Below, piece by piece: positions 18,345-57,787 of a DNA stretch of 64,000 nt (positions are counted from its first letter, which is position 1; each line of letters opens with the position of its first letter). The notes beneath the pieces were generated by a model. That model was given only the letters and a program-made list of their open reading frames with translations. It was not told the origin of the DNA and made no database searches. The position numbers and the translations under genes are program-made. Source of the stretch: Crocinitomicaceae bacterium (GTDB lineage Bacteria > Bacteroidota > Bacteroidia > Flavobacteriales_G > Salibacteraceae); contig PAVO01000041.1 in assembly GCA_002713215.1 (NCBI GenBank), forward strand, positions 1 through 64,000, written 5' to 3'.

Positions 18345-18348
18345 AATA

Positions 18349-20121: not shown

Positions 20122-20175
20122 TTGTTTTTCTTTTAATTTTCAATTGTTGAATGGAATTCACAAGCTCATTTCATC

Positions 20176-30765: not shown

Positions 30766-31456
30766 GTGCCTTCTGGTTGATGACGAGTATTTAGGGCTGA
30801 CTGTTTTGGAAACACACATTTCTAAAATTCCGTTTCTAGAAATTGTTGATAAACGTACAAACCCGTTGGAGGCCATCGAAATAATTGAAAACAGAGGTGT
30901 TGATCTTTTGTTTTTGGATGTTCAAATGCCGGAAATATCCGGAGTTGATTTCTTGAGGAGCCTTTCTAAACAACCATTAACGATTCTGACTACAGCATAT
31001 GCCAATTATGCCCTTGAGGGATATTCTTTAAATGTTCAAGACTATCTTCTTAAGCCCATATCTTTTGAACGATTTGTAAAAGCCACTAATAAAGTACGTA
31101 CCCAATTTGAACTCCTACTTAACAATAGCAATTCAGATAAAGGAAAGTTTATATATGTAAAAGCAGATCACAAAATCCATAAGATCAATTGTTCAAAGAT
31201 TACCTATATAGAAGGGATGAAAGAATACGTAGCTATTTACGTAAAAGACGAAAAACGAATAATAGCCCTTCAATCATTAAAAAATCTACTAGAATTGTTA
31301 GGCTCTAATTTTATTCAAATTCACAGATCTTATATTATAAATAGGCTTTTTGTGAAATCTTTGTATGGAAATAGAATTGAAATTGAGCATAAACAAATTG
31401 CCATAGGTAAAACATACCTTAAGAGAGTAAAAGAAGAGCTTTTTGGATTTAAATAG
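30755..31456 (+). CDS. LytTR-family response regulator
   Basis: A 233-residue regulator from the ATG at 30755; a TTG nine bases earlier is less likely. The receiver domain starts MKIKCLLVDDEYLGLTVLE, with phospho-Asp in LLFLDVQMPEISGVDFL and the conserved Lys in QDYLLKPISFERF. The C-terminal LytTR DNA-binding domain runs from about 130 (FIYVKADHKIHKINCSKITY ... IQIHRSYIINRLFVKSLYG). It pairs with the overlapping LytS-type kinase. Confidence 0.93.
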   Translation: MKIKCLLVDDEYLGLTVLETHISKIPFLEIVDKRTNPLEAIEIIENRGVDLLFLDVQMPEISGVDFLRSLSKQPLTILTTAYANYALEGYSLNVQDYLLKPISFERFVKATNKVRTQFELLLNNSNSDKGKFIYVKADHKIHKINCSKITYIEGMKEYVAIYVKDEKRIIALQSLKNLLELLGSNFIQIHRSYIINRLFVKSLYGNRIEIEHKQIAIGKTYLKRVKEELFGFK

Positions 31457-31532: not shown

Positions 31533-31712
31533 TCACTTCTCATTTTCACAAACCTCTACTCCACCACAAGTACAATTGGTACAACCACCGGTTCCCAAAT
31601 GATCGAAATGGTTTTTGGTCTTCATTTTGCGTGCAATCATTTGTACTACCACCCAACCCGCACAAAGTGCCGATAATGCCAAAACCGGTATGATGTATTG
31701 TATATAATCCAT
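31533..31712 (-). CDS. Small Cys-rich membrane protein at the end of the rnf operon
   Basis: A 59-residue protein: an N-terminal helix (MDYIQYIIPVLALSALCAGW, continuing VVVQMIARKM), then a soluble tail GTGGCTNCTCGGVEVCENEK with four Cys. Its ATG overlaps the TAA of rnfA by one base, so it is translationally coupled to the Rnf complex. The Cys pattern CTNCTCG...C could hold an Fe-S cluster or other metal. The layout recalls FeoB-associated Cys-rich membrane peptides, but here it goes with Rnf. It is short and easily missed; a longer frame overlapping it is a shadow. Confidence 0.75.
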   Translation of the reverse strand: MDYIQYIIPVLALSALCAGWVVVQMIARKMKTKNHFDHLGTGGCTNCTCGGVEVCENEK

Positions 31713-32299
31713 TATCCTCCCGAAAACAGGCCGGCAAATCCCATAAAACCCATGGATATAATACCGGCAATGATCAAATTTAAAGCAGCTCCCTCTATTA
31801 CCTTGGGAATATTAAGAATTCTGGTTTCTTCCCGAACTCCAGCAAGCAATACCAGCGCCAGGGTCACTCCTGCTCCCGCTCCCAGGGCATAAACCAATCC
31901 TTGCCCAAATCCATAGCCCTTGTTGGTTTGAAAAAGGGCTAGTCCCAAAATGGCGCAGTTGGTTGTTATTAGTGGAAGAAAAATTCCCAGGGCCTTAAAC
32001 AATTCAGGACTCACCTTTTTAATGGCCATTTCTACAAATTGTACCGTACTGGCTATTACAATAATGAACGAGATAAGCCTAAGATAAGGTGCATAAGGCA
32101 ATACCCAGGTATTGAGCACATAAGCACAAATGGAAGTAATCAGCATAACGAAGATATTCGCCAGTCCCAATCGAAATGCGGTTATAATTTTTCCTGAAAC
32201 ACCCAAGAATGGGCACAACCCAAGGAAATAAGCCAAAGTAAAGTTGTTGATCAGCAGTGCTGAAACGAAGATGAACAGTATGTTTTCGTTACTACCCAT
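31712..32299 (-). CDS. rnfA: Rnf complex subunit RnfA
   Basis: A 195-residue six-helix inner-membrane subunit of the ferredoxin:NAD+ oxidoreductase (Rnf/Rsx). Family signatures are visible: YFLGLCPFLGVSGKI near the start, with a Cys thought to share a membrane Fe-S cluster with RnfE, and TNCAILGLALFQTNKGYGFG later. RnfA and RnfE are inverted-topology homologues. Its ATG lies inside the end of rnfE (8-base overlap). Confidence 0.95.
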   Translation of the reverse strand: MGSNENILFIFVSALLINNFTLAYFLGLCPFLGVSGKIITAFRLGLANIFVMLITSICAYVLNTWVLPYAPYLRLISFIIVIASTVQFVEMAIKKVSPELFKALGIFLPLITTNCAILGLALFQTNKGYGFGQGLVYALGAGAGVTLALVLLAGVREETRILNIPKVIEGAALNLIIAGIISMGFMGFAGLFSGG

Positions 32300-32948
32300 T
32301 TATACGTTCATTTTCAGTTAATGCGTCCTGTCGCTTCTTTTTTCTGGCCTCGTACCAATTAAAAAAGAGCAACAAAAATCCCAATGCAAAAAAACCGCCC
32401 GGTGGTAGGATCATTACCACCCAGGGTTCGTAATTGGCTCCAAAAAGAGAAATATTAAATAACGAACCATTGCCCAACACTTCACGGATAATTCCAATAC
32501 AGAGCAAAGCGAAGGTAAAGCCAACACTCATTCCCAATGCATCCAATATGGAGCGTCCAACCGGGTTTTTACTAGCAAAGGCTTCCTGCCTACCCAGGAT
32601 AAGGCAATTGACCACTATTAGGGCAATAAATGCTCCCAGTTCCTTATGAATGGCTGGGGCCAAAGCGGCCAAACCAAAGTCGACAACCGTAACGAAGGTG
32701 GCAATGATAATGATGTAACTGGTAATTCGTACCTGCTTGGGGATTACGTTACGCGCAAGTGAAACCAGTATACTGGAACACAGCAACACAAAGGTGGTGG
32801 CCAGCCCCATAGCCAATCCGTTGATGGCTGAATTGGTAACCGCCAGGGCCGGGCACATTCCAAGTAAGGCAACAAAAACCGGGTTTTCGTTCCAAAGTCC
32901 TTTTACAAAGTCAGCTCGTTTCTGAGCGTTGTCTTCCAGATTACCCAT
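32292..32948 (-). CDS. rnfE: Rnf complex subunit RnfE
   Basis: A 218-residue six-helix membrane protein, homologous to RnfA: GLWNENPVFVALLGMCPALA near the N-terminus and VNCLILGRQEAFASKNPVG in the second half, the two Cys segments expected to bind the intramembrane Fe-S cluster. It is coupled to rnfA downstream and follows rnfG by four bases. Confidence 0.95.
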   Translation of the reverse strand: MGNLEDNAQKRADFVKGLWNENPVFVALLGMCPALAVTNSAINGLAMGLATTFVLLCSSILVSLARNVIPKQVRITSYIIIIATFVTVVDFGLAALAPAIHKELGAFIALIVVNCLILGRQEAFASKNPVGRSILDALGMSVGFTFALLCIGIIREVLGNGSLFNISLFGANYEPWVVMILPPGGFFALGFLLLFFNWYEARKKKRQDALTENERING

Positions 32949-32952
32949 TTAC

Positions 32953-33636
32953 CTACGGTTTTCCCAGTTTTTCCGATTCAACATAAGCTTCTATTAGTTT
33001 CTTCCATTCCTCCATGGATTTATTGAGCAATCGCACCACCGCCTTTGATGAAATGGTGGCACCAGTAATGGCTTCCACTTCATTGTCATTCGCTTTTTGT
33101 CCATTTTTTACAATGACAATTTCGGGTGATACCCGAAGGGCCTTAAAGTTTTCCTGAAAGGCCAGATCCTTAAAGATCTTATCCCCTAAACCAGGGGTCT
33201 CCTTGCTCTCTAATACCTCAAAACCAACTATTATTTCCTCGTGTGGATTATAACCATAGATCACTCCTATAATATCCTGAAAGCCAGGTTCGGCACCGGG
33301 TATAGCAAAACCTACAAATTCTTTGTTTTTATCATACCCCACAAAAACCTGCTTTACATCTCCCCCATCTTTTGTTTTGTCACCAGCTGGTTTCAAAACA
33401 CCATCTACCAGAACCAGTTCTTCGAATGAGTCGCAATTTGCCAACACTTTAAAAATGGCACGTTGCAATGCTTCCGCTTTGTTCTGCTCAATGAGGGGCT
33501 TGGTAAAAATGAAGGTCCCCACCAGTACAATACCAGCCAGTAATCCGGCAATGCCCAGGGTAATCACCAACAAAGCTGATGCTGGCTCTTTGGCTTCATC
33601 TGCCGCTCCTTGTTCTATTTCAGTTTCACTACTCAC
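32953..33636 (-). CDS. rnfG: Rnf complex subunit RnfG (FMN-binding)
   Basis: A 227-residue subunit with one N-terminal helix (about 20-45) and a periplasmic FMN-binding domain. The covalent flavin motif is TGAT at 191-194 (EVEAITGATISSKAVV). Segments ESKETPGLGDKI and FVGFAIPG match the family. The start is GTG at 33636. It carries electrons between RnfD and the rest of the pump on the outer face of the membrane. Confidence 0.95.
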   Translation of the reverse strand: MSSETEIEQGAADEAKEPASALLVITLGIAGLLAGIVLVGTFIFTKPLIEQNKAEALQRAIFKVLANCDSFEELVLVDGVLKPAGDKTKDGGDVKQVFVGYDKNKEFVGFAIPGAEPGFQDIIGVIYGYNPHEEIIVGFEVLESKETPGLGDKIFKDLAFQENFKALRVSPEIVIVKNGQKANDNEVEAITGATISSKAVVRLLNKSMEEWKKLIEAYVESEKLGKP

Positions 33637-33647
33637 TTCATTAATTC

Positions 33648-34655
33648 CTATTTGGCCTTCTCGTGCCCATAAGTTCTAATCTTCGTGTATTTATTAATCA
33701 ATGGTGTTGCTGCATTCATCAGCAGTATGGCATACATTACTCCCTCGGGCAGTCCACCCCAGTTTCGAATCAGGACTATAAGTAATCCTATTCCAATTCC
33801 AAATACCCAGCATCCCTTGGGCGTAAGTGGTGATGTTACCAGATCGGTTGCCATATAGACCGTACCCAATAACATACCTCCGGATAATATCATAAATACT
33901 GGAGAAGGATATCGTGCCGGATCAATCATCCAAAAAATACCGGAGAAAATGCTAACCGTCAATACAATGGATAATGGAATTCTCCAATTAATAATCTTGC
34001 GAACGAGTAAAAATATTCCTGCCAGGATCAATAGAATTCCACAGGTTTCACCCAATGAACCGCCTGTGTTCCCCAAGAGCAGATCCATGGTATCCGTACC
34101 CACCTGTTCAAATTTCATTTTGGCTAGGGGTGTCGCACCTGTGGCACCATCTATGTTTTTCCCCTGCATCATAGGCATGGCCAGGTTGGTTCCCCTTAAA
34201 CCAAAGAAGCGACCATCGGGTGGCGACCACGTGGTAATGGCTGTAGGAAATGCCGCCTGAAGAAATGCACGCCCCAACAATGCCGGGTTAAAGACGTTTT
34301 GTCCGAGTCCGCCCCAAATTACCTTTCCCATACCAATGGCAACTACACCGCCTAAAAACACCATCCAAAGTGGAAAGCCAGGTGGCAAGGTCAAGGCCAA
34401 AAGCAAACCGGTAATTAATCCACTGCCATCTTTTAGGCTTCTGGAACGGTCGCCCGACGTATTAAACACCCATTCGGTAAACATGCAGGAAAAAACTGAG
34501 GTTATGGTTACCAGTATAGCGGCTAATCCAAAGAAATAAAACGATACAGCCACTACGGGCATCAAGGTATAAACCACCAAAAACATAATTTTCGGTGTAC
34601 TGTCATCGTCCTTTAGGAAAGGAGCTGTGGAAATGGATAACTTATCTCCTATCAT
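33648..34655 (-). CDS. rnfD: Rnf complex subunit RnfD
   Basis: A 335-residue polytopic membrane subunit with covalently bound flavin; the attachment region DGATGATPLAKMK lies at about 169-181. Other family elements are DGSGLITGLLLALTLPPG and GGLGQNVFNPALLGRAFL. RnfD is a main candidate for the ion-translocating channel with coupling to Na+ or H+. The ATG overlaps the rnfC stop by four bases. Confidence 0.95.
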   Translation of the reverse strand: MIGDKLSISTAPFLKDDDSTPKIMFLVVYTLMPVVAVSFYFFGLAAILVTITSVFSCMFTEWVFNTSGDRSRSLKDGSGLITGLLLALTLPPGFPLWMVFLGGVVAIGMGKVIWGGLGQNVFNPALLGRAFLQAAFPTAITTWSPPDGRFFGLRGTNLAMPMMQGKNIDGATGATPLAKMKFEQVGTDTMDLLLGNTGGSLGETCGILLILAGIFLLVRKIINWRIPLSIVLTVSIFSGIFWMIDPARYPSPVFMILSGGMLLGTVYMATDLVTSPLTPKGCWVFGIGIGLLIVLIRNWGGLPEGVMYAILLMNAATPLINKYTKIRTYGHEKAK

Positions 34656-36001
34656 GCATTCTCCTCCATTTCTTTTTCACGTGCCCATTTTTCCCGAAGC
34701 ATTCCTTTGGCCACCCTAAAGCTTTGCACCAATGGTATATTGGAAGGACAAACAAACGAACAACTCGCACATTCAAAGCAGTCCATTACGTTGTAATCCA
34801 TCATTTCATCCCAGAGTCCTTTTTTGGCCAGAAGGCCCATCATACTAGGGTTTAGAAATATGGGACAAGCGTCCACACAGCGGCTGCACCGTATACAACT
34901 GTATTGGTCCAGGTCTTTTACCTCGTTGTTGGTTAATACCAAAATTCCGGAGGTGCCTTTTACCACCGGAGTATCAATGCTTTTTTGAACCACTCCCATC
35001 ATGGGGCCACCGAGTAATATCCGAACGGCATCCTGGGTAATTCCTCCACAAAGCTCTATAACATCCCTCATGGGAGTACCTATAGGCACCAATACGTTTC
35101 CGGGTCGTTTTATAGCTGTACCGGTAACGGTGACAACCCGTTCGGTTAGCGGCTTTCCTTTTCTGTAATAGTCGGATAAACAGGCAATGGTTCCCACGTT
35201 GCTTACCAGTACGCCCAGGTCCAGCGGTAATTTGCCACTGGGAACTTCTTTGCCCAAAATGGCGGTGATCATCATTTTTTCAGCACCTTGTGGATACTTA
35301 ACCTTAAGAGGCACTACCTCTACTGGAAAATCGCTTTTTTTAGCCTCCTCGGCCAATATCTCTATGGCGTCAGGTTTATTGGCTTCAATTCCAATATAGG
35401 CCTTCTCCGCACCTACAAATCGATTGAGAATTCCAATTCCGTCAATCACCTCTTTTGCGTGCTCCACCATTACCCGATGATCGGCGGTTAGGAAAGGTTC
35501 GCACTCGCAGCCGTTGAGCATAATGTAACGGCATTTCTTGTCTTCTGGTATTTTGAATTTTACATGAGCCGGAAATGCTGCTCCTCCCAGGCCAACGATA
35601 CCTGCATCCTGGATACTGGATATAAATGATTTGGTGTCCATTTGCTCAAAGTCAATGGGACTGCTCTCTCTAATTTGAGGACTAAATGGATCGCACTTGA
35701 TTTTTATTGCGGGCAATACCTTACCATTGGGATGTGGAAAAATATCAATATCCGAAACAGTACCATCAACCGGGGAATGCAATGCCACGGATATAAAACC
35801 TCCGGCATCTGCAATTTTCTGCCCTCGCTTAACCTGCTGACCTTTTACAACAATGGCTTTGCTCGGCGCACCAATATGCTGACTCAACGGTAGTGTATAT
35901 TCTTCTACAAAAGGCATTCGCTCAATAGAACAATGGTCGCTTAGGCTTTTGAACTCCCTGGGGTGAACCCCGTGTTTGAATGTAAGTTTCTTATCCAACA
36001 A
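34652..36001 (-). CDS. rnfC: Rnf complex subunit RnfC
   Basis: About 449 residues. It has the N-terminal barrel (TFKHGVHPREFKSLS), the NADH/FMN-binding Complex-1-51K-like segment (GIVGLGGAAFPAHVKFKIPE, ILNGCECEPFLTADHR-type sequence) and two [4Fe-4S] motifs: CIRCSRCVDACPIFLNP and CFECASCSFVCPSNIP. RnfC is the cytoplasmic NAD(H) site. No ATG is available; a TTG at 36001 lies directly after the TGA of the upstream 1235-residue gene and gives the family N-terminus, while a TTG at 36031 would overlap that gene by 29 bases. Confidence 0.93.
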   Translation of the reverse strand: MLDKKLTFKHGVHPREFKSLSDHCSIERMPFVEEYTLPLSQHIGAPSKAIVVKGQQVKRGQKIADAGGFISVALHSPVDGTVSDIDIFPHPNGKVLPAIKIKCDPFSPQIRESSPIDFEQMDTKSFISSIQDAGIVGLGGAAFPAHVKFKIPEDKKCRYIMLNGCECEPFLTADHRVMVEHAKEVIDGIGILNRFVGAEKAYIGIEANKPDAIEILAEEAKKSDFPVEVVPLKVKYPQGAEKMMITAILGKEVPSGKLPLDLGVLVSNVGTIACLSDYYRKGKPLTERVVTVTGTAIKRPGNVLVPIGTPMRDVIELCGGITQDAVRILLGGPMMGVVQKSIDTPVVKGTSGILVLTNNEVKDLDQYSCIRCSRCVDACPIFLNPSMMGLLAKKGLWDEMMDYNVMDCFECASCSFVCPSNIPLVQSFRVAKGMLREKWAREKEMEENA

Positions 36002-36002
36002 T

Positions 36003-39000
36003 TCAGTTTTTGCGTTGTTTGGAGAGTTCAACCAATTTGCTTCGGATTTTCAAACGAATTTCCTCTTGCTGCACCTGAGCCTGCTCGTGCAATTGGCTTT
36101 CGTAATCCGTCTTTAGTTGTTGCATTTCACGTTCATACTTTTCGGATAATTCGGCACTCACCTGTTGTTTGAGTTTCTTAGGAAACTCTGTGATCATTCC
36201 TGCCAGTTCGCGCCAGGTATTCCAATTGTCAGCGCATTTTTCGCATATGGAAATAATGTGTTCGGAAACGGAATACATTCGAATGTCCTTGTTCTGAATT
36301 CGAATAACAACAGGGGTTTTTCCTTTTCTTCCGCTTTCTTCCAACTCCAGGTATTCAGCTACCTGTACTCCATCGCTGCCTTCATATTTCTCAAAGTGTT
36401 TACCGCTTACCTTCATACTAAATGCCCAGTCGGCCCAGGTAACCCGATAATCGAGTTCCTTTGATTCTTCATCCAACACATAAGGCAATTTTTCGCTGTG
36501 CCAGGCTTCATTGGGCGATGGGTTTGATTCAAGATCGATAGAGCTTCCGAAAAAATCTGATTTGGGTTTGTATTTAATAAACGGAAACGCCCGACTTGAT
36601 AGAGCCAGCGCAGAAAGCTGTTTAAATGCCCCATAACCGTGGTGAAGACCTGCATTACTGGTGTGTAAACAGAAAAGCGCAGGTTTCGAGGAATGTAAAC
36701 CTTCGTGAAGGCCATCGAACATGTTGGAAGAAGAGCCCAAACTGCCTTGCATAACGTAGGCGTTCTTTTGTACAACAGCAGTCAATACACTTTCTGTTGT
36801 GGTAAAGGATCCATCTTCTGCGGTATCAATAATTACTAATTTAAAGGGATATTCACTGGCCAGAAGTCGGCTTGTGCCCTGCCTGTTTTGCTCACTTAAG
36901 GAATGGTGTGAAGCCACTATAAGCACGGGTGGGACAATTGCACGCTCTTCTTCGGTAAGGTCCTTCCAGCTTAAATTGGCGATTTCCTCATCGTGTTGGT
37001 GCTGATCGTATTTGTTCTTAACCTCCAATTTGGCCCTTCGCAGCAGTTTAATGTTATCGAGTACATACCGCAATTGACCAAGAAACACACCTTCTGCACG
37101 TTCTGCCAGGGATTCGTTCTTGTTGCATACTTGAACGGGTACCGTAAACACGTTAAAAGGAAAACTGTTAACCCAGCCTAGATTGTCTTCTGCATTAACA
37201 ACCATGCTGTATCGTGCTCTGCCAGTACCAGTTGGCCCCTCTTCAATCAGCCATTGCAAGCTTTTTAAATTGTCAAGCAGTTCAATCTTCCTTCGTACCA
37301 AAAAGGTGTCTATCTGCTTCATGAGCTCCCGATCTCCCAATTGCCCGATTACCTGGTCGAAAGGAGTCATTTTCCCACTGCTACCTCCCACAACCTCTTT
37401 TAAACTATCGAATTGGTCTTTGGGAAGTGCCTCTACAAGCATGCTATGAACATTTTCGTTCAACCCCTTGATCAAGGTTTTGACTTCCTTTACTTCTTCT
37501 ACAACCTGGGTTTGAGTGACGGATTCGGTCAGTGCCGTTACCAGGTGGAGTATTTGCTTGCTGGGAGCAGCTTCCAAATCTGCTGTTCCACCGGTCATTG
37601 ATAAGTAGAAGTTACGACTTAGTAGAATAGCGGCAAAAGAATCATAATCGGGTTCGCTGTGTAAGCGTTTAATGGTTTCACCACTTGTATCCGGGAGTAA
37701 TTCCCACAAATCGAATGACTTCTGAGTTTCATTTAATAACTCAGGAGTTTGAGTTGACATAACCAAAGCTTCATCTTTACAAACGTTGCTGCAAATACCA
37801 CAGCCGGTACAGGCTCCGGGGTCAATGGCCAGTGTAAATAGTTCTCCACTTCCCTGCTCCCTGGCCTCGGAAATCTCAAAAAATGTAGAGGTAATAGCTA
37901 CTGGTAATGAAGCAATCTCTTCCAGGATTGTTTTAAAGTCCGAAGTGATATTACTGGCTTTTTCCTCCGGCCAACCTGCTTGTTCAGATAAGGCATCAAA
38001 ACCAGATTGGAGAAAAGCTCCAACTTCAGTTTGTTGCTCACTGTTTTCGGAGATTTTAGTGGCCGTCATCTTCGCCAACATTTTTACAACGGGAGTAATG
38101 TGTATGGTGGTTTGGCCTTTTTTACCAGCAAGGGATGCTCCGGCTTTCATCAGTTCTTCCAGACTGATAACCAAAGGCGGAATGGCTGAATGAGGGCAGC
38201 TTACGAAACAATCGCCACAGCCGGTGCACTTATCGGGTATAAATTGGGGGATGCTTTCTCTTTGGCTGGAATAACTGGCAAGACTAGCAGAAGCCGCCGG
38301 TATATTATCCAATGCTTGGTAAGGATCGGCAACCAACTCCATGTGGACCCGGTCATCCTTAACTCCATAGAATATAGCCGTATCGTTGTAAAACCTCGAC
38401 AACTTCGTATATTCTGGTCCCTGATCTTTATAATGCCTGATGGTTAATGGGAGTTTTTTGGGGAAGTTCGTTGAAGAAGCATTTTGCCTGTTTCCGGTTA
38501 ACGACAAGGAAGATAAGTTTGGATATTTACGCTTTATATTTCCCAGAAGAACATCGTGTTTAGGAAAACTGCTTGAATTATGGGTAAACTCTATCCCGAG
38601 GTAAAACAAATCCTTTTTAGCTCCACTCATGTTTTCCACAGCAGCCTTTACATCACTTTTGTGGAGTTCGTTGTTGTATAAGCCACCCAGGAGTTTAGTA
38701 TTGCTATTGCTTTGGCGCAATAAAGCCAGTAATTCCAGAAAGAGAGGCGTTTTCCCCAATGCTCCGTTTACCACGTTTTCCAGAAGTGTCAGTTGTCGAA
38801 CTCCCTTCAATGCTTGGATCAATTCACTTTCAGGAAGTGGATTTACAACATTTAAATCTATACATCCAGTATTCAAGCGCTTGTCTGCTTGTGCCATTTC
38901 CTTAATACCCCCTGTTACCGTTTCGGAGGCCATACCCGTGGATATAATAATTTGACGTGATCCAGGTGAATTATAAGTGTCTATTGCAGAGTAATTTCTA

Positions 39001-39710
39001 CCGGTTAATTGATTGTATTCTTTAATTGCTTTTTTGGTAAGGTCCGGTGTGTGAGAATGGAAATATTCATTTTTAGCGGATGCTGAAAATGCTTTGAAAA
39101 GTCCATTCTTTTCAATGCCGTTTGTGGCGGGGAAGTTTAGGTTAAACCAGTTGGGGACACTTCTTCTCTTGTCTCCAAAAATCATTTCCTGGGCAGGAGT
39201 TGGTGTGTCGATCATTATTGATGGGGCTCCCAGGTAACTTGAGATCAATTCAGTTGTTGGAATTTCAGGGGCAGCTTTTTGGAATGAATCCGAGACCAAT
39301 ATTACTGGAACCAGGGCCAGTTCCGCAATTCTATGGGCAATTAGCGTAAAATCTGCCTGCTGCTGTTCGTTGGAAGCTAAAAGAATAACGCAGCCTGCTG
39401 CTGCTAAAGGCTGAAGATTGACCTGTGAGTTCGTATTGGTATGCACTACCAAGGCTATATGCTGCCGGGCGGCATTTGCTATGGCATTGGTATTCTTAGC
39501 TAAATCGGAAGACTCCACTTCAACGGCTATCCTTAAACCGGTTGAACACATGCCTATGGCCGTACTTATGTCGGTTGATTCAATTGACGTAACCGGGCGC
39601 CCAAAAATGTTAAGTCCTGCAGGCTTGAACTTTCCGGTACTGTATTGATACCCTTCGCAAACCCGGGATTCAATCTCTCTTATTGTCGTTCTATTCATCA
39701 ATGCCTTCAA
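36003..39710 (-). CDS. Giant PFOR-like Fe-S protein without a thiamine-diphosphate site
   Basis: A 1235-residue protein aligned by eye to pyruvate:ferredoxin oxidoreductase (PFOR). Residues 30-150 resemble domain I (LASNEQQQADFTLIAHRIAE), 210-330 the transketolase C-terminal-like domain (AIKEYNQLTGRNY). Two [4Fe-4S] motifs follow: C495-x2-C-x2-C-x3-C (CTGCGDCFVSCPHSAI) and C634-x2-C-x2-C-x3-C (CTGCGICSNVCKDE). Residues 800-1130 correspond to PFOR domain VI, but the GDG..N thiamine-binding motif is absent; the segment reads VLIVASHHSLSEQNRQGTSR. A basic coiled-coil tail ends it. It lies between rnfB and rnfC, so it is probably a dedicated electron-transfer or scaffold partner of Rnf. Confidence 0.75.
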   Translation of the reverse strand: MKALMNRTTIREIESRVCEGYQYSTGKFKPAGLNIFGRPVTSIESTDISTAIGMCSTGLRIAVEVESSDLAKNTNAIANAARQHIALVVHTNTNSQVNLQPLAAAGCVILLASNEQQQADFTLIAHRIAELALVPVILVSDSFQKAAPEIPTTELISSYLGAPSIMIDTPTPAQEMIFGDKRRSVPNWFNLNFPATNGIEKNGLFKAFSASAKNEYFHSHTPDLTKKAIKEYNQLTGRNYSAIDTYNSPGSRQIIISTGMASETVTGGIKEMAQADKRLNTGCIDLNVVNPLPESELIQALKGVRQLTLLENVVNGALGKTPLFLELLALLRQSNSNTKLLGGLYNNELHKSDVKAAVENMSGAKKDLFYLGIEFTHNSSSFPKHDVLLGNIKRKYPNLSSLSLTGNRQNASSTNFPKKLPLTIRHYKDQGPEYTKLSRFYNDTAIFYGVKDDRVHMELVADPYQALDNIPAASASLASYSSQRESIPQFIPDKCTGCGDCFVSCPHSAIPPLVISLEELMKAGASLAGKKGQTTIHITPVVKMLAKMTATKISENSEQQTEVGAFLQSGFDALSEQAGWPEEKASNITSDFKTILEEIASLPVAITSTFFEISEAREQGSGELFTLAIDPGACTGCGICSNVCKDEALVMSTQTPELLNETQKSFDLWELLPDTSGETIKRLHSEPDYDSFAAILLSRNFYLSMTGGTADLEAAPSKQILHLVTALTESVTQTQVVEEVKEVKTLIKGLNENVHSMLVEALPKDQFDSLKEVVGGSSGKMTPFDQVIGQLGDRELMKQIDTFLVRRKIELLDNLKSLQWLIEEGPTGTGRARYSMVVNAEDNLGWVNSFPFNVFTVPVQVCNKNESLAERAEGVFLGQLRYVLDNIKLLRRAKLEVKNKYDQHQHDEEIANLSWKDLTEEERAIVPPVLIVASHHSLSEQNRQGTSRLLASEYPFKLVIIDTAEDGSFTTTESVLTAVVQKNAYVMQGSLGSSSNMFDGLHEGLHSSKPALFCLHTSNAGLHHGYGAFKQLSALALSSRAFPFIKYKPKSDFFGSSIDLESNPSPNEAWHSEKLPYVLDEESKELDYRVTWADWAFSMKVSGKHFEKYEGSDGVQVAEYLELEESGRKGKTPVVIRIQNKDIRMYSVSEHIISICEKCADNWNTWRELAGMITEFPKKLKQQVSAELSEKYEREMQQLKTDYESQLHEQAQVQQEEIRLKIRSKLVELSKQRKN

Positions 39711-39714
39711 TTCG

Positions 39715-40620
39715 TTAAGACCTTTCGGTAACTATTATTTTTTCACCACTACTCATATTTGTTTCTACTCCCCCTAAGGCCAGGGTTTTTTCCCTGGGTT
39801 TTTCAAACTGAGCTTCACCTTCTAGCCAAACAATGGCATTGGTGGGACAGCGCATGGTAGCCAGCGGGGTAGCCAAATCATTGTGGTTGTAATTGATTAC
39901 GGCCAGGTTATTCTTTATTTCTATAACACCTTCTTCTGCATCTGCAACACACCTGGCGCAAGCAGTGCATGCAACGGAGCACTTCGACTCTGCCAGGTCA
40001 CCTTCAAGCAGCGAACGGCACTGAACGATTAGTTTTTGCTCAACCGGCATAAGCACAAACAACTCCTTGGGGCAAGCATCTACACAATCGCTACAAGCGG
40101 TACATTTTTCCGGGATAACCTCAGGAAGTCCGTTTGAATTCATAAACAGGGCATCAAAATCGCACGATACAGCACAATCGCCCAAACCCAGGCAACCCCA
40201 GGAACAGTCCTTAGACCCTCCGGTAACTACTGCTTCTCCTCTACACGTTCCAATTCCTCCTTTGTAATTGGCCAGGTTATGTGCTTCGTTTTTACCTCCG
40301 GCACACAGCAATCGAGCTACCCGCTTATTGGCCTCTCCGGCATCTACGCCAAGAAACTCTGCAATATTTTCAATGCCTTCGGGAGAGCTAACCGTACAAC
40401 CCGAAGGAACCAACTCATTAGCAATCAGCTTTTCAGCAAATGCTCTGCATCCGGGAACTCCACAAGCACCACAGTTTGTATTGGGAAGCATTTCTTCAAC
40501 AGTATCCAACCGGGGATCTTCATACACCTTCAGTTTTTTATACGAAACCGCCAGAATGACTCCAAACAGAAGTCCAAGTCCCGTAATAATTACTAGCGCT
40601 ATGATGATCTCGTTTGTCAT
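39715..40620 (-). CDS. rnfB: Rnf complex subunit RnfB
   Basis: A 301-residue subunit: an N-terminal anchor helix (IIIALVIITGLGLLFGVILA), a 4Fe-4S domain (C50, C53, C58, C75 in NCGACGVPGCRAF), then several ferredoxin-type clusters, including CLGLGDCAVSC, CTACSDCVDACPKEL and CTACARC. RnfB takes electrons from ferredoxin and passes them to the membrane. It is longer than minimal RnfB. It is flanked by the two PFOR-like genes (40 bases from the 842-residue gene, 4 bases from the 1235-residue gene). Confidence 0.93.
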   Translation of the reverse strand: MTNEIIIALVIITGLGLLFGVILAVSYKKLKVYEDPRLDTVEEMLPNTNCGACGVPGCRAFAEKLIANELVPSGCTVSSPEGIENIAEFLGVDAGEANKRVARLLCAGGKNEAHNLANYKGGIGTCRGEAVVTGGSKDCSWGCLGLGDCAVSCDFDALFMNSNGLPEVIPEKCTACSDCVDACPKELFVLMPVEQKLIVQCRSLLEGDLAESKCSVACTACARCVADAEEGVIEIKNNLAVINYNHNDLATPLATMRCPTNAIVWLEGEAQFEKPREKTLALGGVETNMSSGEKIIVTERS

Positions 40621-40660
40621 TCTTACCTGAGCAACCCGTTTTTATGAATTACATTCCCAA

Positions 40661-43189
40661 TTAATTAAACTTTTTGGCTCTTTCAATTAATGCGTCCAAT
40701 CCGGGTTCATTGTTATTGACTGGGTCACCGGGATGAATTATTCCTACCGGACATAATTCGGCGGCTTCCACCAATTCCTCAAAAGTTCCGGCATTAATGT
40801 CCGCTATGAATGCCATTTTATCGTCGTTGTAATTGAACAGGCTACCGTTAAGGTTGGTGCATTCGTTACAGGAAGTACAAAGTGCTGTATCAATGTAGGC
40901 TTCTGCTGCCATTGAAATTGCAGGGCTATCCGCTTCAGTAGGTACTTCCGGAGTATCTGATTCCTCAGACGCCGCAGGTTTTTCTATTGCCTTACCAGGA
41001 GCAGAACTCCCAGAGCCCGGAACAAAGGTTCCGGCATCCATATCCAGTAATACTGCTGAAAGGTTATCCATTGCCTGTCCTGCAGCTTCATCAACAGCAG
41101 CTTGCAGTTCTACCTGATGTTCGGCTTTTAACGCCTCCATCTTTTCAGCCGCAATAACCCCTAAAGATTCTTCCGCTTTTGCGATTGCATTTTTAACGTG
41201 GTAATTATTCACCCCGCTGCTCTCCTGAAGAAAACGCCAGAAATCCTGCCTTTCTCTGCACTTTAAAACCAAAGGCCAGGCAACGGCTACTTTTTTAAGA
41301 TGTAGTTTTTCATCGGCCATCCAAATGAATGGTACCTTGCCTACAGCCTCTTCCTTATCTAATTTAAGGTATTGGGCGAGTTCCAATAGGTTTTCATTCC
41401 AATAACACTGTTCTACATCCTGAAAGAAGGATGTGTATTTCGGAAGAAAGGTTGCAAAATCGGCATAAGTAAAATGAGCGGTTATCGTTTCATCCTCTTT
41501 TCCCTTTTGAGCAATAACCTCTTCAATTGGCCATACATTCTCCGCTTGAAAATTGTTATCAATATTGAATCGGCTACCCCAGTGGCTATTCATATTTCCA
41601 CTAAAAGTAAAACCTGGGTATTCCCGACCAGAAACCGCTGCACTAACCCACATGTATGAGTCTACCGGTTTTTTGCGAATACTGGACAACAGAAAAAATG
41701 CACCAGGTGAAGCAACCGTTAGTCCATTTTTCAATTCGTTGTACAACACCAAAGGCTTAATGGCCGTCGATTGACATACAAATGCATTTCTGTGGGAAAT
41801 TACAAAGGCACCCAGTTCCTGGTGATAGCTGAAATTGCTTTCAGTTTCAACACCGTTGCTTTTGTAAGCATCTTCTATATCATTTTTTAATACCAGTGAT
41901 CGAATGGGTATTCCCTTTGAAAGGATTTTAGAGAACTCACCCATTTCTGAGTCTGCTATGTACTCCTCGCTGGCGATGAGTACAAATGGAGGGCAAGAAG
42001 TGATTTCGTCTTCTGAAAAATCTCGCCATGTAAGGCTCTCGAAATATTCGTCGTGTACATCCTCCATATAACGACCAGCCAGTTCTAACTCAGCAATCTG
42101 AATTCCTACTATAACAAGAGTCCATTGTTCTATTTCTTGTTCAAAGGCTTTCTTAATGGTAGTATACCCTGCCCCTTTTTTGAAGCTCTTAATATTTACG
42201 TCTCCCAATAGCAATTTCCAATCGGGTGATTCGGGTGTCTTTTGGTCATCACCTATAAAAACAAAAGCCTTGTTTTTCAACAATTTGTCGGCTATTTCAA
42301 GTTTTGCAATCGTATCCTCAAGTCTCTTTTTCCTGGAAGCAGACATTTGTACTGCACCTGCATCAGGCAATACCTTTGAGACTTTTTCAAAGTCCAACAA
42401 CTCGGAAGCAAAAGATAAAGTTGATTCTAATTCCTTTGGGTCTTGCTCTTCCTTTTCATGGTCAATAGCCAACTGCCCCTGAAGTTTACATTTGAGCTTA
42501 AGAATTTTATCGGAAAGCTGCTGACTTCTTCTACCTGTTTCTTGCTGGAGCATAGCTCCAAAAATTTGAAAGCCTGCATTGGAATTGTACGGAACCAAAA
42601 TCCCATGGGTTGGAATAACTTTTCGTAAGCGTTTCAGGTGCTTGTCAAACTTTTTACCGTCATCACCTGGTATGCTCAACCTTTTTGCGAGATCGTCTAA
42701 GGCAGCTAGAATACAGGAATAAAATGTGGTTACTTCCCCACTTTTAGCCAAACTCTCGTCCACTGTCTTTACAATTCTGGCAATATTGTTTTTAAGAATG
42801 GAAGATTCTACACCCCCGGTAGCTTCGCTAACCGCTTCGGTAAGTAATTCCTGTAAAGACCTACAGCAGCTTTCATCTCCTACGACATCGGAGATCCAAA
42901 TAGGGTAATCACTTGCAGTAAAAGCGTCACTCTGGTATGGAAGAGATAATAATGGAGTGGAATTTTTAATTGATTTCTTGCTGTTACCGTTTCTAAAAAA
43001 GGATCGAATGCTCTTCCATGCCTTTTTCATTTCTACTTCATCGGCCGGCTCAACCTCTCTTAAAACCGGCACAGTAATATCACTAGTAAAATCGGATGAA
43101 ATGAGGGGAACATCTTCTGTCCCAATCACCTTTTGAATTTCCGGGGCATCCTCGATAAAAAAAGAACCAATATTTGTCGTGTCGCTCAT
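40661..43189 (-). CDS. PFOR domain VI-like protein with C-terminal ferredoxin
   Basis: An 842-residue protein paralogous to the C-terminal half of the 1235-residue protein: LTWRDFSEDEITSCPPFVLI here against LSWKDLTEEERAIVPPVLIV there, then FTYADFATF against VTWADWAF, and a matching coiled-coil tail. It too lacks a GDG thiamine motif. An acidic, Pro/Ser/Glu-rich linker (about 720-760) leads to a single-cluster ferredoxin: C771, C774, C777 and C813 (CTSCNECTN ... ELCPVG). The tethered ferredoxin on a flexible arm suggests an electron shuttle between KorAB (encoded just upstream) and RnfB (just downstream). Function is inferred; no close characterised homologue is known to me. Confidence 0.7.
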   Translation of the reverse strand: MSDTTNIGSFFIEDAPEIQKVIGTEDVPLISSDFTSDITVPVLREVEPADEVEMKKAWKSIRSFFRNGNSKKSIKNSTPLLSLPYQSDAFTASDYPIWISDVVGDESCCRSLQELLTEAVSEATGGVESSILKNNIARIVKTVDESLAKSGEVTTFYSCILAALDDLAKRLSIPGDDGKKFDKHLKRLRKVIPTHGILVPYNSNAGFQIFGAMLQQETGRRSQQLSDKILKLKCKLQGQLAIDHEKEEQDPKELESTLSFASELLDFEKVSKVLPDAGAVQMSASRKKRLEDTIAKLEIADKLLKNKAFVFIGDDQKTPESPDWKLLLGDVNIKSFKKGAGYTTIKKAFEQEIEQWTLVIVGIQIAELELAGRYMEDVHDEYFESLTWRDFSEDEITSCPPFVLIASEEYIADSEMGEFSKILSKGIPIRSLVLKNDIEDAYKSNGVETESNFSYHQELGAFVISHRNAFVCQSTAIKPLVLYNELKNGLTVASPGAFFLLSSIRKKPVDSYMWVSAAVSGREYPGFTFSGNMNSHWGSRFNIDNNFQAENVWPIEEVIAQKGKEDETITAHFTYADFATFLPKYTSFFQDVEQCYWNENLLELAQYLKLDKEEAVGKVPFIWMADEKLHLKKVAVAWPLVLKCRERQDFWRFLQESSGVNNYHVKNAIAKAEESLGVIAAEKMEALKAEHQVELQAAVDEAAGQAMDNLSAVLLDMDAGTFVPGSGSSAPGKAIEKPAASEESDTPEVPTEADSPAISMAAEAYIDTALCTSCNECTNLNGSLFNYNDDKMAFIADINAGTFEELVEAAELCPVGIIHPGDPVNNNEPGLDALIERAKKFN

Positions 43190-43232: not shown

Positions 43233-44186
43233 TTAAATACCATACTTATCAAATTCGGCGTTTAGCATTGCTGTTTTTTCTTCCACTGTAACTCCCAGGT
43301 TATGCGCACCATAATCGTCGTAGTTTTCCTTGTTTTTGCCCTGGTAAAACAAGCCCAGGTAAATTTTTTCCTCACTTGCAGCCAGTTGCCTTGCACCATT
43401 AATGTCTGAAGGGTCATGAGGCGCAGAATGCTTAAACGTTTTCTCAATATCCTCTGAAACGGTGATACCGTTGTCGTCTTTTAGATAACAAATATTGTCC
43501 CTGTTGGAGGTTAGCTCATTCACCAACTCAGGCTGAAATATTGGACAACGTTGTAAAATGTGTACGAAAGAAAAACCCTTATGTGCATGGGCTGCCTTTA
43601 TGGTAGCATGCATGTGTGCAGGGTTCCAGTCAGCCGTCTGAGCTACAAAAGATGCATTTGCCACGCCAAGCGTTACCTGCATAGGATCAAGCGGTGGTAA
43701 AATGGATCCTCTTGGAGTGGTGTTGGAAACTGTTCCGATTCTCGATGTAGGAGACTGTTGTTTCTTCGTTAAACCATAGATTTCGTTGTTGAAGAGCATA
43801 ACGGTGAGGTTTACGTTGTACCGTATAGCATGAATCCAAGCCCCGGCACCAATGGAACAGCAATCACCGTCGCCGGTAATGACAAAAACATCCAAATCGG
43901 GTCTACGGTGTTTTATTCCACATGCTACTGGAAAAGCCCGACCGTGCAAGCCATGAAATCCATAGGTATTCATATAATGTGGAAATCGAGAAGAGCATCC
44001 AATACCGGAGACAAATACAGTTTTAACGGGATCGAGTTGTTCTTCTCTACACAATTTCTGTACACTAGCTAGTACTGCATGATCGCCACAGCCATCACAC
44101 CAACGGGCAATTCCCTTCTCGTAATCGTCTAGTACGTAATAATTTTCGGGTAGCTCAAGCGCTGCATCAGGTTTCAATCCAAACAT
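43233..44186 (-). CDS. korB: 2-oxoacid:ferredoxin oxidoreductase, beta subunit
   Basis: A 317-residue catalytic subunit. It has the cluster-binding RWCDGCGDHAVLASVQKLC (C30, C33) with GIGCSSRFPHYMNTYGF (C64) and a later RCP Cys, and the thiamine-diphosphate motif GDGD (105-108) followed by NNEIYGLTKKQQSPTS. The motif GLTKKQ..PT is typical of 2-oxoglutarate-type enzymes. With KorA it oxidises 2-oxoglutarate (or another 2-oxoacid) and CoA to acyl-CoA and CO2, reducing ferredoxin. It follows korA by 12 bases. Confidence 0.93.
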   Translation of the reverse strand: MFGLKPDAALELPENYYVLDDYEKGIARWCDGCGDHAVLASVQKLCREEQLDPVKTVFVSGIGCSSRFPHYMNTYGFHGLHGRAFPVACGIKHRRPDLDVFVITGDGDCCSIGAGAWIHAIRYNVNLTVMLFNNEIYGLTKKQQSPTSRIGTVSNTTPRGSILPPLDPMQVTLGVANASFVAQTADWNPAHMHATIKAAHAHKGFSFVHILQRCPIFQPELVNELTSNRDNICYLKDDNGITVSEDIEKTFKHSAPHDPSDINGARQLAASEEKIYLGLFYQGKNKENYDDYGAHNLGVTVEEKTAMLNAEFDKYGI

Positions 44187-44198
44187 AGGTCCTCTTGT

Positions 44199-46085
44199 TT
44201 ACTTGTTAATTCTTTGTTTTATCTCTCTCAGTACTTTTTTGGGCGACAGAGGTTGTCCCATTACGTTAGAATAGCAATCCACATCAACCAATGTTCTTGC
44301 TCTTAGTATCCAGGCCAATTGTGCATAACGTCTGTTATCTTCAGTTATGCCATCTGCATCGGCTTTGTCACTGTAATTGATTTCAATTGTCATTACCTTT
44401 TTAAAACGACTGAATATTTCTTTTAATCCAGGTTCTAACGGGCTTAAAAAGCGTAAGTGAATCGAAGACACTTTTAATCCCTCTTTTTGGGCTAAGCCTA
44501 CAGCCTCTTCAATGGAGCCGAGCGTTGAACCCCAACTCACTATGAGTAAATCACCGGATTCCTCACCATTAATAGTTGGTGGCTTCAACGTACGTTTAAA
44601 AGTGGCGAGTTTCTTACTTCTTAACTCGCTCGTTTTTTGGTTGTTATCTGGGTTATACGAAACTTTTCCTTTGGTATCGTGAGCCAAACCAGTAAGCGTA
44701 TAAATCCCACCAGACTGTCCTGGAATCGGGCGTTTACTCAATCCGGTTTCAGGGTCCCAGTTGAACGGGGTAACTCCCTCCTTCCAGGGGCTTTGATCTA
44801 CTGGTGGAGCAAACCAATCTCGTTGAATTTTAGGTCTTGCAAATGGTTGTTGACCCGTAGCCAGGTTAGCATCGGTCAATAAGTAAACTGGTGTCCTAAA
44901 GGAATCCGCTATTTTTCTAGCGAGAATTACAAAGTGGAAACACTCTTCAATGGTCGCCATTGCCATAACAATTTTTGGAGCATCTCCCGTCTGACCGTAC
45001 AAAATAGCTAGCAAGTCACTTTGTTCTACCTTGGTAGGAAGCCCTGTGGAAGGACCACCACGCTGAACATCGACAATAACAAGTGGAACTTCCGCCATTG
45101 CGGCTAGTCCCAAAAATTCAGTTTTAAGAGCAATCCCAGGTCCTGACGTAATGGTAACAGCAGTTTTGCCTGAATACGAGGAACCAATAGCAAAACCAAC
45201 AGCAGCAATTTCATCTTCGGCCTGATGAACAACGCCACCAGCAGATTCGAATACGTCGGCCAGATAATGCGAAGCAGAAGTAGCCGGAGTAATTGGATAC
45301 ATGGAACACACCTCCATTCCGGAAGCAATAACTCCCATTCCAACGGCTTCATTTCCATTCATTACAACCAGTTGCTCGTCCAATTCCATGGGAGTGATTT
45401 CATACTCGAAATCCAGGTTTTCTTTGGCCCATTTATATCCCGCATGCAGCAAGTCGATGTTGGAATTAATTATGGTATCTGATTTCTTTCTAAAGATTTG
45501 CTTGATTTGAGCCTCAGCTCTGCCAATATCCCGGGAATAAATCTCACAAAGCATACCGAGCACCCACATGTTTTTACCTTTCCGTGGGTTCTTTACCAGT
45601 TTAAGGCATTCCTTTTCCATTGGAACCTCAATGACCTCGTATCCCCTTTCATTGAAATCCTTTAAAGCTTCAGCGTAACTTTCTCGAATGCTATCTGAAG
45701 CCTCTTCCGCCCACTTACTTTCAATAAGCATTATAGTGCCCTCGGTATAAGCGCTCTGGTCTATTCTTCCGTAAGGCACCTGTTCATTAAACGCAACTAC
45801 CAGATTAGCCTCATTTCCCATGTTGGTTACCTTTTCGGAACCAATTCTAATTCTAATTCCGGAAGCACCCTCTCTAGTTCGTGCCGGTGGTTGAATTTCA
45901 GCAGGAATAATTTCTACGGTCCACACTCCATTTCCCATTTTAGCGGATATAGAGGCAAAACTTTGCCCACACTTTTGAGCTCCCTCGCCGGAGTCACTCA
46001 CAATTTCTACAATGTGCTCGCTTAGGCGAATCGCCTTATTCCCTTTTTGTGTGACCTTTTCTTTCAATTCAGTTGTTACGCTCAT
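44199..46085 (-). CDS. korA: 2-oxoacid:ferredoxin oxidoreductase, fused gamma-alpha subunit
   Basis: A 628-residue protein with the gamma domain first (about 20-200: SGEGAQKCGQSFASISAKMG) and the pyrimidine-binding alpha domain after it (from about 230: GNEAVGMGVIASGMEVCSMY, PITPATSASHYLADVFE, QAEDEIAAVGFAIGSSYSGK, TSGPGIALKTEFLGLAAMAE). This gamma-alpha fusion is the common aerobic KorA form. It pairs with KorB. It is the first energy-metabolism gene of the array leading into rnf; a methyltransferase gene lies 35 bases upstream. Confidence 0.94.
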   Translation of the reverse strand: MSVTTELKEKVTQKGNKAIRLSEHIVEIVSDSGEGAQKCGQSFASISAKMGNGVWTVEIIPAEIQPPARTREGASGIRIRIGSEKVTNMGNEANLVVAFNEQVPYGRIDQSAYTEGTIMLIESKWAEEASDSIRESYAEALKDFNERGYEVIEVPMEKECLKLVKNPRKGKNMWVLGMLCEIYSRDIGRAEAQIKQIFRKKSDTIINSNIDLLHAGYKWAKENLDFEYEITPMELDEQLVVMNGNEAVGMGVIASGMEVCSMYPITPATSASHYLADVFESAGGVVHQAEDEIAAVGFAIGSSYSGKTAVTITSGPGIALKTEFLGLAAMAEVPLVIVDVQRGGPSTGLPTKVEQSDLLAILYGQTGDAPKIVMAMATIEECFHFVILARKIADSFRTPVYLLTDANLATGQQPFARPKIQRDWFAPPVDQSPWKEGVTPFNWDPETGLSKRPIPGQSGGIYTLTGLAHDTKGKVSYNPDNNQKTSELRSKKLATFKRTLKPPTINGEESGDLLIVSWGSTLGSIEEAVGLAQKEGLKVSSIHLRFLSPLEPGLKEIFSRFKKVMTIEINYSDKADADGITEDNRRYAQLAWILRARTLVDVDCYSNVMGQPLSPKKVLREIKQRINK

Positions 46086-46120: not shown

Positions 46121-46726
46121 TCATCGTTTTCTACAAAACAATACGCCTTTTCCAATTGGGATAATGACCGGATCTACTCGATCATCATCGAATGCTCGCT
46201 CAATCATGGGTGTGAGAATGTCGCTGTGGCTAATTGCATTATCTGCAATTAAAACCCCTCCTTTCTTCATTCGGGGAATTAAAATTTCATAGCACTCGGC
46301 ATATACATCCTTTTCTGCATCCAAAAAGCAGAATGCCACGTTGTCAAACGAATGAAGGATTTTTCGGGCATCTCCTTTTTTAAGTTTTACAAAATCACTT
46401 ATTCCAGCCTCTTCGAAGGTTTCGCTGGCTAACTTTTGTTTTTCTTCCAGAATTTCAATGGTAGTTAATGGGGTGTTCTTTTCCATACAAGCCAGCGAAA
46501 GCCACATGGTGGAATATCCCGCACTTGTACCTACTTCCAGGTAATTTCCTACGGGAGCCATAGAGGCCATTAATGAAATAAACTTTCCTGTTTCCCTTGG
46601 AATTTGTCTCATCCTCTTCAATAATGGAGTCCCATCCTTTTGGTCACGTTCGTCAATACGCTCCAAAAATTGCATTCGGGTAATTATGGATTGAGGAATT
46701 CTATCAAACATGTAGCGAGGTGGCAA
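46121..46726 (-). CDS. Class I SAM-dependent O-methyltransferase
   Basis: A 201-residue methyltransferase of the catechol/caffeoyl-CoA O-methyltransferase fold: motif I YLEVGTSAGYSTMWLSLA, the acidic residue after strand 2 (TTIEILEEKQKLASETF), CFLDAEKDVYAECYEILI and GGVLIADNAISHSDI with metal-binding residues. Small-molecule substrate unknown. It lies 35 bases before korA and reads the same way, so it may be the promoter-proximal gene of the array, although its function looks unrelated. Confidence 0.88.
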   Translation of the reverse strand: MPPRYMFDRIPQSIITRMQFLERIDERDQKDGTPLLKRMRQIPRETGKFISLMASMAPVGNYLEVGTSAGYSTMWLSLACMEKNTPLTTIEILEEKQKLASETFEEAGISDFVKLKKGDARKILHSFDNVAFCFLDAEKDVYAECYEILIPRMKKGGVLIADNAISHSDILTPMIERAFDDDRVDPVIIPIGKGVLFCRKR

Positions 46727-57694: not shown

Positions 57695-57787
57695 CTGTGA
57701 TTTTTTGCAAAGGTCTGCGAATATTCCTCCACAGAAATGATGCATATCATGTGGATCCGATTAATCGGATTAAGAGTATAAAAGAAA

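Follow-up and report, generated by a model that had tools for sequence, protein, structure and literature searches.

Two PFOR-derived proteins without a thiamine site, encoded between KorB and RnfC, may form a ferredoxin wire from a two-subunit 2-oxoacid oxidoreductase to the Rnf complex

Two large proteins of 842 and 1235 residues are encoded in one operon with KorA-KorB, a two-subunit 2-oxoacid:acceptor oxidoreductase, and the complete Rnf complex, which raises the question of what the two proteins are and what they do there. The operon lies in a 64,000-nucleotide stretch of Crocinitomicaceae bacterium DNA (contig PAVO01000041.1, hereafter the window). An earlier note made from the sequence alone had taken them for paralogous derivatives of pyruvate:ferredoxin oxidoreductase (PFOR), occupying the place of its domain VI without its thiamine motif. 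The operon runs on the minus strand in the order KorA-KorB-842-RnfB-1235-RnfCDGEA with neighbouring genes 4-43 bases apart or slightly overlapping, and both open reading frames are where the note had placed them, with RnfB between.

44199..46085, minus strand: KorA, 2-oxoacid:acceptor oxidoreductase alpha subunit, 628 aa (TIGR03710, 521 bits, above cut-off)
43233..44186, minus strand: KorB, beta subunit, 317 aa (TIGR02177, 1.3e-69)
40661..43189, minus strand: 842-aa protein (A type), PFOR-derived, non-catalytic, with C-terminal ferredoxin
39715..40620, minus strand: RnfB, 301 aa (TIGR01944, 83.4 bits against a cut-off of 68.7)
36003..39710, minus strand: 1235-aa protein (B type), PFOR-derived, non-catalytic, with two domain-V [4Fe-4S] sites
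34652..36031, minus strand: RnfC, 459 aa (TIGR01945, 542 bits, above cut-off)
33648..34655, minus strand: RnfD (TIGR01946, 335 bits, above cut-off)
32953..33636, minus strand: RnfG (TIGR01947, 1.7e-27, 96.7 bits, slightly below the cut-off of 102)
32292..32948, minus strand: RnfE (TIGR01948, 238 bits, above cut-off)
31712..32299, minus strand: RnfA (TIGR01943, 6.5e-64, 216 bits, slightly below the cut-off of 229)

All six rnfABCDGE genes were thus matched, B, C, D and E above their curated cut-offs. An O-methyltransferase gene (Methyltransf_3, 46121-46726) lies immediately upstream of KorA on the same strand, and a divergent sensor histidine kinase and a response regulator, the latter of LytTR type by appearance, adjoin the 3' end of the Rnf operon (29686-31456). 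The gene at 55637-57745, about 9.5 kb from KorA, encodes a fusion protein resembling ADP-forming acyl-CoA synthetases (Succ_CoA_lig, CoA_binding_2, ATP-grasp_5), which could conceivably yield ATP from the acyl-CoA product. An AcrB/CusA-family pump, a CusB-like fusion protein with DUF3347 and HMBD, and an outer-membrane factor (17034-25211) make up a probable heavy-metal efflux cluster.

BLASTP aligned the two proteins with each other (E = 2e-20, 23% identity across 344 aa), and tblastn of the whole genome with both matched only each other. The short blocks from which the earlier note had inferred paralogy do align, and the match proved far larger: family profiles built from 57 A-type and 32 B-type proteins matched each other with probability 100 and E = 1.5e-64 over 666 columns that begin ahead of domain V and reach the tails.

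The 1235-residue protein matched PFOR sequences of the PDB at 3e-24 across domains I-II and V, and the B-family profile matched PFOR at 2e-70 with domain VI included; against TIGR02176 the protein scored 110 bits, far below the curated cut-off of 911. Its AlphaFold2 model (residues 1-1190; pLDDT 81.4, pTM 0.82) had PFOR as best Foldseek match (4e-29) and was aligned to PFOR over residues 5-1172 with Z 21.7 and an rmsd of about 20 A. Judging from the model, this large rmsd presumably reflects the placement of the domains and the missing domain III.

38601..39698, minus strand: residues 5-370, domains I-II in degenerate form, with domain III deleted
37641..38423, minus strand: residues 430-690, domain V with a helical insert
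38196..38228, minus strand: first [4Fe-4S] motif CTGCGDCFVSC (C495-C505), each cysteine in 30-32 of 32 relatives
37779..37811, minus strand: second [4Fe-4S] motif CTGCGICSNVC (C634-C644), each cysteine in 30-32 of 32 relatives
36195..37640, minus strand: residues 691-1172, domain VI fold lacking both the thiamine and the proximal-cluster site
36903..36911, minus strand: lost GDG position, now S934-H935-H936

With the 842-residue protein, NCBIfam gave zero matches, Pfam matched only a single-cluster ferredoxin in the last ~80 residues (Fer4_13, 1.5e-7), and phmmer with the single sequence returned ferredoxins as the sole matches of meaningful score. No family directly matched its N-terminal ~200 residues. 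A profile of the 842 type (A3), run against PDB sequences, reached PFOR merely at E = 0.9, and its best matches were designed helical proteins. We rejected the latter as a coiled-coil artefact, because the fold search and hhalign decide for PFOR. The AlphaFold2 model (pLDDT 84.6) had PFOR as best Foldseek match (8e-7) and was superposed on Moorella PFOR with VIA Z 22.5 over 294 residues at 5.3 A, residues 94-659 of the model facing residues 691-1170 of PFOR, that is, domains V-VI. Domain I is entirely missing, domains I-III having been deleted. Since the match between the A and B profiles begins before domain V of B, the N-terminal ~200 residues are a domain V devoid of cysteines.

42593..43051, minus strand: residues 47-199, domain V remnant with zero cluster cysteines (hhalign of A3 against A4; cysteines in 0 of 57 relatives)
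41210..42592, minus strand: residues 200-660, domain VI fold lacking both the thiamine and the proximal-cluster site (VIA Z and census)
40727..40903, minus strand: residues 763-821, single [4Fe-4S] ferredoxin domain (C771, C774, C777, C813; Fer4_13)

A lack of any structural match to PFOR had been set beforehand as the outcome that would refute the earlier reading; both models found the match, and domains V-VI of the 842-residue protein and residues 691-1172 of the 1235-residue protein occupy the place that the note had assigned to them.

We then compared the two families with a long PFOR that has kept its catalytic residues (hereafter CAT; 1637-1732 aa). Besides the thiamine motif GDGAMYDIGFQN it has every cluster and, at its C terminus, the ferredoxin of the A type; it was found at L015:3436-8346, L017:8097-13007, L089:6542-11629, L094:6533-11728 and L099:6575-11614 (L numbers denote loci). 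CAT is an unnamed PFOR subfamily in the Rnf operon, with a TIGR02176 score of 415 bits against the cut-off of 911. CAT, A and B have in common helical inserts in domains V and VI that E. coli YdbK lacks or has in shorter form, implying that the three belong to one PFOR lineage. In a FastTree phylogeny of domain VI, which the earlier note had proposed as a check, A grouped with CAT (0.999), in agreement with the prediction from their common ferredoxin tail; B fell outside with weak support, the deep B-type nodes being weak (0.74) and the B-type root unresolved. From the sequences, A and B appear to descend from long, ferredoxin-tailed PFORs.

Some A-type proteins elsewhere retain domains I-III, making the PFOR ancestry direct for both families. 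The 1442-residue protein of L048 keeps all three (E = 5e-36 to CAT residues 41-616), and the extra N-terminal sequence of the L065 protein matches part of PFOR domain II; these long proteins may represent intermediate stages of truncation. Extra N-terminal sequence was seen in seven A-type proteins of 1268-1608 aa as called (L045, L048, L049, L056, L058, L063 and L065). Fusion of the KorB and A genes does not explain these long reading frames, because each locus examined has a separate upstream KorB and the extra length is domains I-III where tested. The B-type proteins, too, can be ranked by length: with domain III kept they reach 1593 aa, and where it is lost they measure about 1190-1310 aa. 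We regard the descent of both window proteins from PFOR, as dead copies, as near certain.

Next we took a census of sites in 6 catalytic (CAT), 32 B-type and 57 A-type proteins. It depends on MAFFT alignments of divergent sequences, and many of the loci are MAG contigs in which some reading frames are over-extended or frameshifted. The strict GDG-x24-34-N motif was found in 6/6 CAT, 0/32 B and 1/57 A, the lone A-type match being most likely due to chance. At the GDG position the 1235-residue protein has S934-H935-H936 and the 842-residue protein S-E-E, so that the claimed loss of GDGxxxN holds for both; the Mg ligands of this motif are presumably D963, T991 and N996 in D. africanus numbering. 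The diphosphate loop has 39 residues in CAT, 34 in YdbK, 23 in the 842-residue protein and only 11 in the 1235-residue protein. A full set of proximal-cluster cysteines in domain VI was seen in the six CAT proteins only, and neither window protein has any. Among the domain I residues, which we take to be Thr31, Glu64 and Arg114 of D. africanus PFOR (numbers anchored on our own alignments), the B type keeps Thr31 in 1/32, Glu64 in 4/32 and Arg114 in 11/32; the window protein has a gap at the first, a Glu aligned with the second and an Asn at the third.

These residues bear on whether the pair could still be thiamine enzymes with an altered pocket, which would also have counted against the earlier note. 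The Glu aligned with Glu64 and the presence of Arg114 in a minority of B-type relatives would suit such enzymes, but the former is rare among relatives and the latter absent from the window protein; the window proteins have lost GDG, Thr31 and all proximal-cluster cysteines, their diphosphate loop has been physically cut short, and the 842-residue protein has no domain I at all. No pocket of alternative residues was found, and we consider this reading very improbable.

The cluster sites outside domain VI behaved differently. The domain-V cysteines are present in 6/6 CAT, each of the eight in 30-32 of 32 B and in 0/57 A; in the window all eight, inferred to be cluster ligands, are present in the 1235-residue protein and none in the 842-residue protein. 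The four C-terminal ferredoxin cysteines are present in 6/6 CAT, 57/57 A and 0/32 B. Because the cysteines stayed invariant while the catalytic sites decayed, the cluster sites are under selection and catalysis is not. As far as cluster content can be inferred from cysteines, A and B seem to have decayed reciprocally, keeping complementary halves with 2 + 1 cluster sites. Lost catalytic motifs and deleted domains could be expected of decaying pseudogenes, but the frames are open, gene order and partners are conserved and the cysteines are invariant across many phyla, so that this explanation can hardly be entertained.

To see the company these genes keep, an alignment of four 842-type proteins was searched against 84,980 species genomes, giving 246 relatives, 80 of which were kept as loci. 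The hosts include Bacteroidota, SAR324, Alpha-, Beta-, Gamma- and Deltaproteobacteria, Myxococcota, Acidobacteria, Gemmatimonadota, Planctomycetota, Krumholzibacteria and others; the A type is rare within the phylum of the window (4/395 genomes). KorA and KorB lie directly upstream of A in every one of the 59 loci whose sequence reaches far enough (found by ORF calling in 52, by tblastn in 7); the last seven, apparently without KorB, were effects of ORF calling. The window order KorA-KorB-A-RnfB-B-RnfCDGEA is the commonest layout, and A followed by RnfB, B and RnfC was seen in Bacteroidota, SAR324, Gammaproteobacteria, Myxococcota, Acidobacteria and others. A second layout, found chiefly in Proteobacteria, has NfnA/NfnB-like genes ahead of KorA-KorB-A and lacks both Rnf and B (Nfn-like genes directly upstream in L061, L064, L067, L073, L074, L077, L080-L083, L086, L095, L098 and L100). 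Such loci probably encode a 2-oxoacid:NAD(P)+ oxidoreductase whose ferredoxin partner is again the dead PFOR. A Rhodopseudomonas study of benzoate degradation deals with KorAB and an Nfn homologue (PMC9973337).

Gemmatimonadota and a Phycisphaera MAG (Planctomycetota) have KorA-KorB-RnfB-CAT-RnfC without A. The Algoriphagus order is CAT-RnfCDGEA-FNR-RnfB-KorAB-A; here A occurs with CAT and without B, and is thus independent of B in places. The FNR gene, for a ferredoxin-NADP-reductase-like flavoprotein reminiscent of NqrF, lies between RnfA and RnfB in Algoriphagus-type loci (L015:12646-13635, L017:2723-3580). In L066 (Opitutales) KorAB-A has neither Rnf nor Nfn genes recognised nearby. Comparison of the layouts indicates that A accompanies KorAB, whereas Rnf is accompanied by B (or CAT).

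The KorAB of the window has an intact thiamine site. KorA has the domain order III-I-II and the YPITP motif; KorB has the thiamine site (GDGDCCSIG ... NNEIYGLTK), the cluster cysteines and a TPP_enzyme_C match at 2e-28. Two-subunit OFORs have domains III-I-II in the alpha and domain VI in the beta subunit; domain V, the intramolecular ferredoxin domain, is missing (PMC5020499). The window KorB ends in the tail EFDKYGI (elsewhere, for example, EFDKYAI), which in KorBs of A-linked loci (L015-L100 and the window) was found in 73/74 by a loose motif and 56/74 by a strict one; it is absent from 4 other KorB homologues of the same loci and, by eye, from the second KorB of the genome. This C-terminal region sits at the dimer interface in solved OFORs (PMC5020499), and the conserved tail, on sequence grounds, may be a docking site or a signature. 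The genome contains zero PFORs above the TIGR02176 cut-off, so the A/B pair serves no local PFOR. A second KorAB is also encoded, as is a 2-oxoglutarate dehydrogenase of the NAD-linked kind that scores above its cut-off, so that any chain built on the operon would be an extra route and not the sole one.

A and B supply three cluster sites that KorAB lacks, and they are encoded between KorB and RnfC; a wire is therefore the simplest reading. We think it probable that KorAB does the catalysis and that the dead pair links it to Rnf as a tethered ferredoxin wire, although there are no biochemical or interaction data and no complex model, and the Algoriphagus and L066 layouts count against it. KorA-KorB, the only working oxidoreductase of the operon, would oxidise a 2-oxoacid and pass the electrons to the single KorB cluster. 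The 842-residue protein would dock on KorAB via its PFOR-like body and present its C-terminal ferredoxin as a tethered acceptor, and the PFOR-like body of the 1235-residue protein would pair with it, the two perhaps forming a pseudo-dimer that resembles the PFOR homodimer. The electrons would proceed to the two domain-V clusters of the 1235-residue protein and on to RnfB/RnfC, and Rnf would reduce NAD+ and pump Na+ or H+. The whole chain would then be an energy-conserving 2-oxoacid:NAD+ oxidoreductase that releases no free reduced ferredoxin. The physical complex, the electron path, the docking partners, the direction and the substrate are all inferred, and gene order is no proof of contact.

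The earlier note had left it between structural and electron-carrying subunits. As structural or assembly factors the two proteins would hold KorAB to Rnf off the electron path while free ferredoxin shuttles; the bulk of their mass is dead PFOR body, and a scaffold needs no cofactor. That every A-type protein keeps its ferredoxin cysteines (57/57) and nearly every B-type protein its domain-V cysteines (30-32/32), with all catalytic sites decayed, makes this unlikely. The electron-carrying role is thus supported by conserved cysteines, but it has not been demonstrated.

If the pair is a wire, its direction has to be considered, since Rnf and OFORs run reversibly. Rnf, with the ion gradient and NADH, might drive electrons via the 1235- and 842-residue proteins into reductive carboxylation by KorAB, for example of succinyl-CoA to 2-oxoglutarate. 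The NAD-linked 2-oxoglutarate dehydrogenase of this genome already covers the oxidative step, and two-subunit KorAB possibly takes part in reductive cycles of Gammaproteobacteria (PMC6315080). Many hosts, however, seem to be heterotrophic, judged by their names only. We hold reverse flow, the chief alternative, to be possible but not favoured, and oxidation to be the more likely direction.

A bolder form of the wire is that KorAB, the two dead PFORs and Rnf make up an undescribed respiratory supercomplex, a single 2-oxoacid:NAD+ oxidoreductase ion pump whose sister form uses Nfn; this we offer only tentatively, as something short of an even chance. Were the supercomplex real, energy wasted by ordinary 2-oxoacid dehydrogenases would be conserved and low-potential electrons would be shielded from oxygen. 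An oxidation of central metabolism would be an energy-coupling site, even in hosts that, like this one, have the NAD-linked 2-oxoglutarate dehydrogenase, and direct feeding of Rnf by an enzyme, instead of by free ferredoxin, becomes testable. The pair also illustrates plainly how duplicated copies can decay in complementary ways, with the input ferredoxin in one copy, the relay clusters in the other and catalysis gone in both. For annotation there is a risk: the 842 type is unnamed in NCBIfam and the 1235 type could be miscalled PFOR, so that pyruvate:ferredoxin oxidoreductase could be ascribed in error to genomes like this one.

Our literature search found no Rnf-PFOR supercomplex and no dead or inactive PFOR subunit, which is weak evidence because subscription journals were mostly uncovered. 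A term search in the available text of a 2025 RNF/NQR review (PMC12174285) returned no oxoglutarate and no extra subunits of such kind. For tubeworm symbionts and Thioflavicoccus, korAB and Rnf genes have both been discussed (PMC6315080). The only possible prior trace in the literature searched comes from tubeworm-symbiont transcriptomics, where a 'PFOR-like' gene is mentioned alongside korAB. In the part of that Riftia-symbiont study available to us (PMC11636981), its expression changes together with, and falls along with, that of the dimeric korAB; there it is named from transcript data only, without domain analysis.

Among known systems, PFOR itself (NifJ, TIGR02176; PDB 1b0p, 6cin) shares the fold, the domain order I-II-V-VI (1235-residue protein) or V-VI (842-residue protein) and the domain-V cluster cysteines of the 1235-residue protein. 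The window pair differs from it in lacking the thiamine site and the proximal cluster, in the deletion of domain III from one protein and of I-III from the other, whose domain V is clusterless, in the helical inserts in V and VI, and in the ferredoxin tail of the 842-residue protein. The window KorA and KorB belong to the class of two-subunit KorAB (PDB 5b46, 6n2n); known KorAB delivers electrons to free ferredoxin, whereas here the genes are followed by that of a dedicated ferredoxin-bearing partner. The six subunit genes of the Rnf complex (RnfABCDGE) are all in the operon. Coupling of OFORs to Rnf through free ferredoxin is textbook knowledge, and described Rnf is fed by soluble ferredoxin; the window operon adds KorAB and two PFOR-derived genes. 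We know of no PFOR-built non-catalytic subunit in a respiratory complex, but the principle resembles that of the non-catalytic homologues found in such complexes, where an enzyme-derived subunit serves as scaffold and electron wire.
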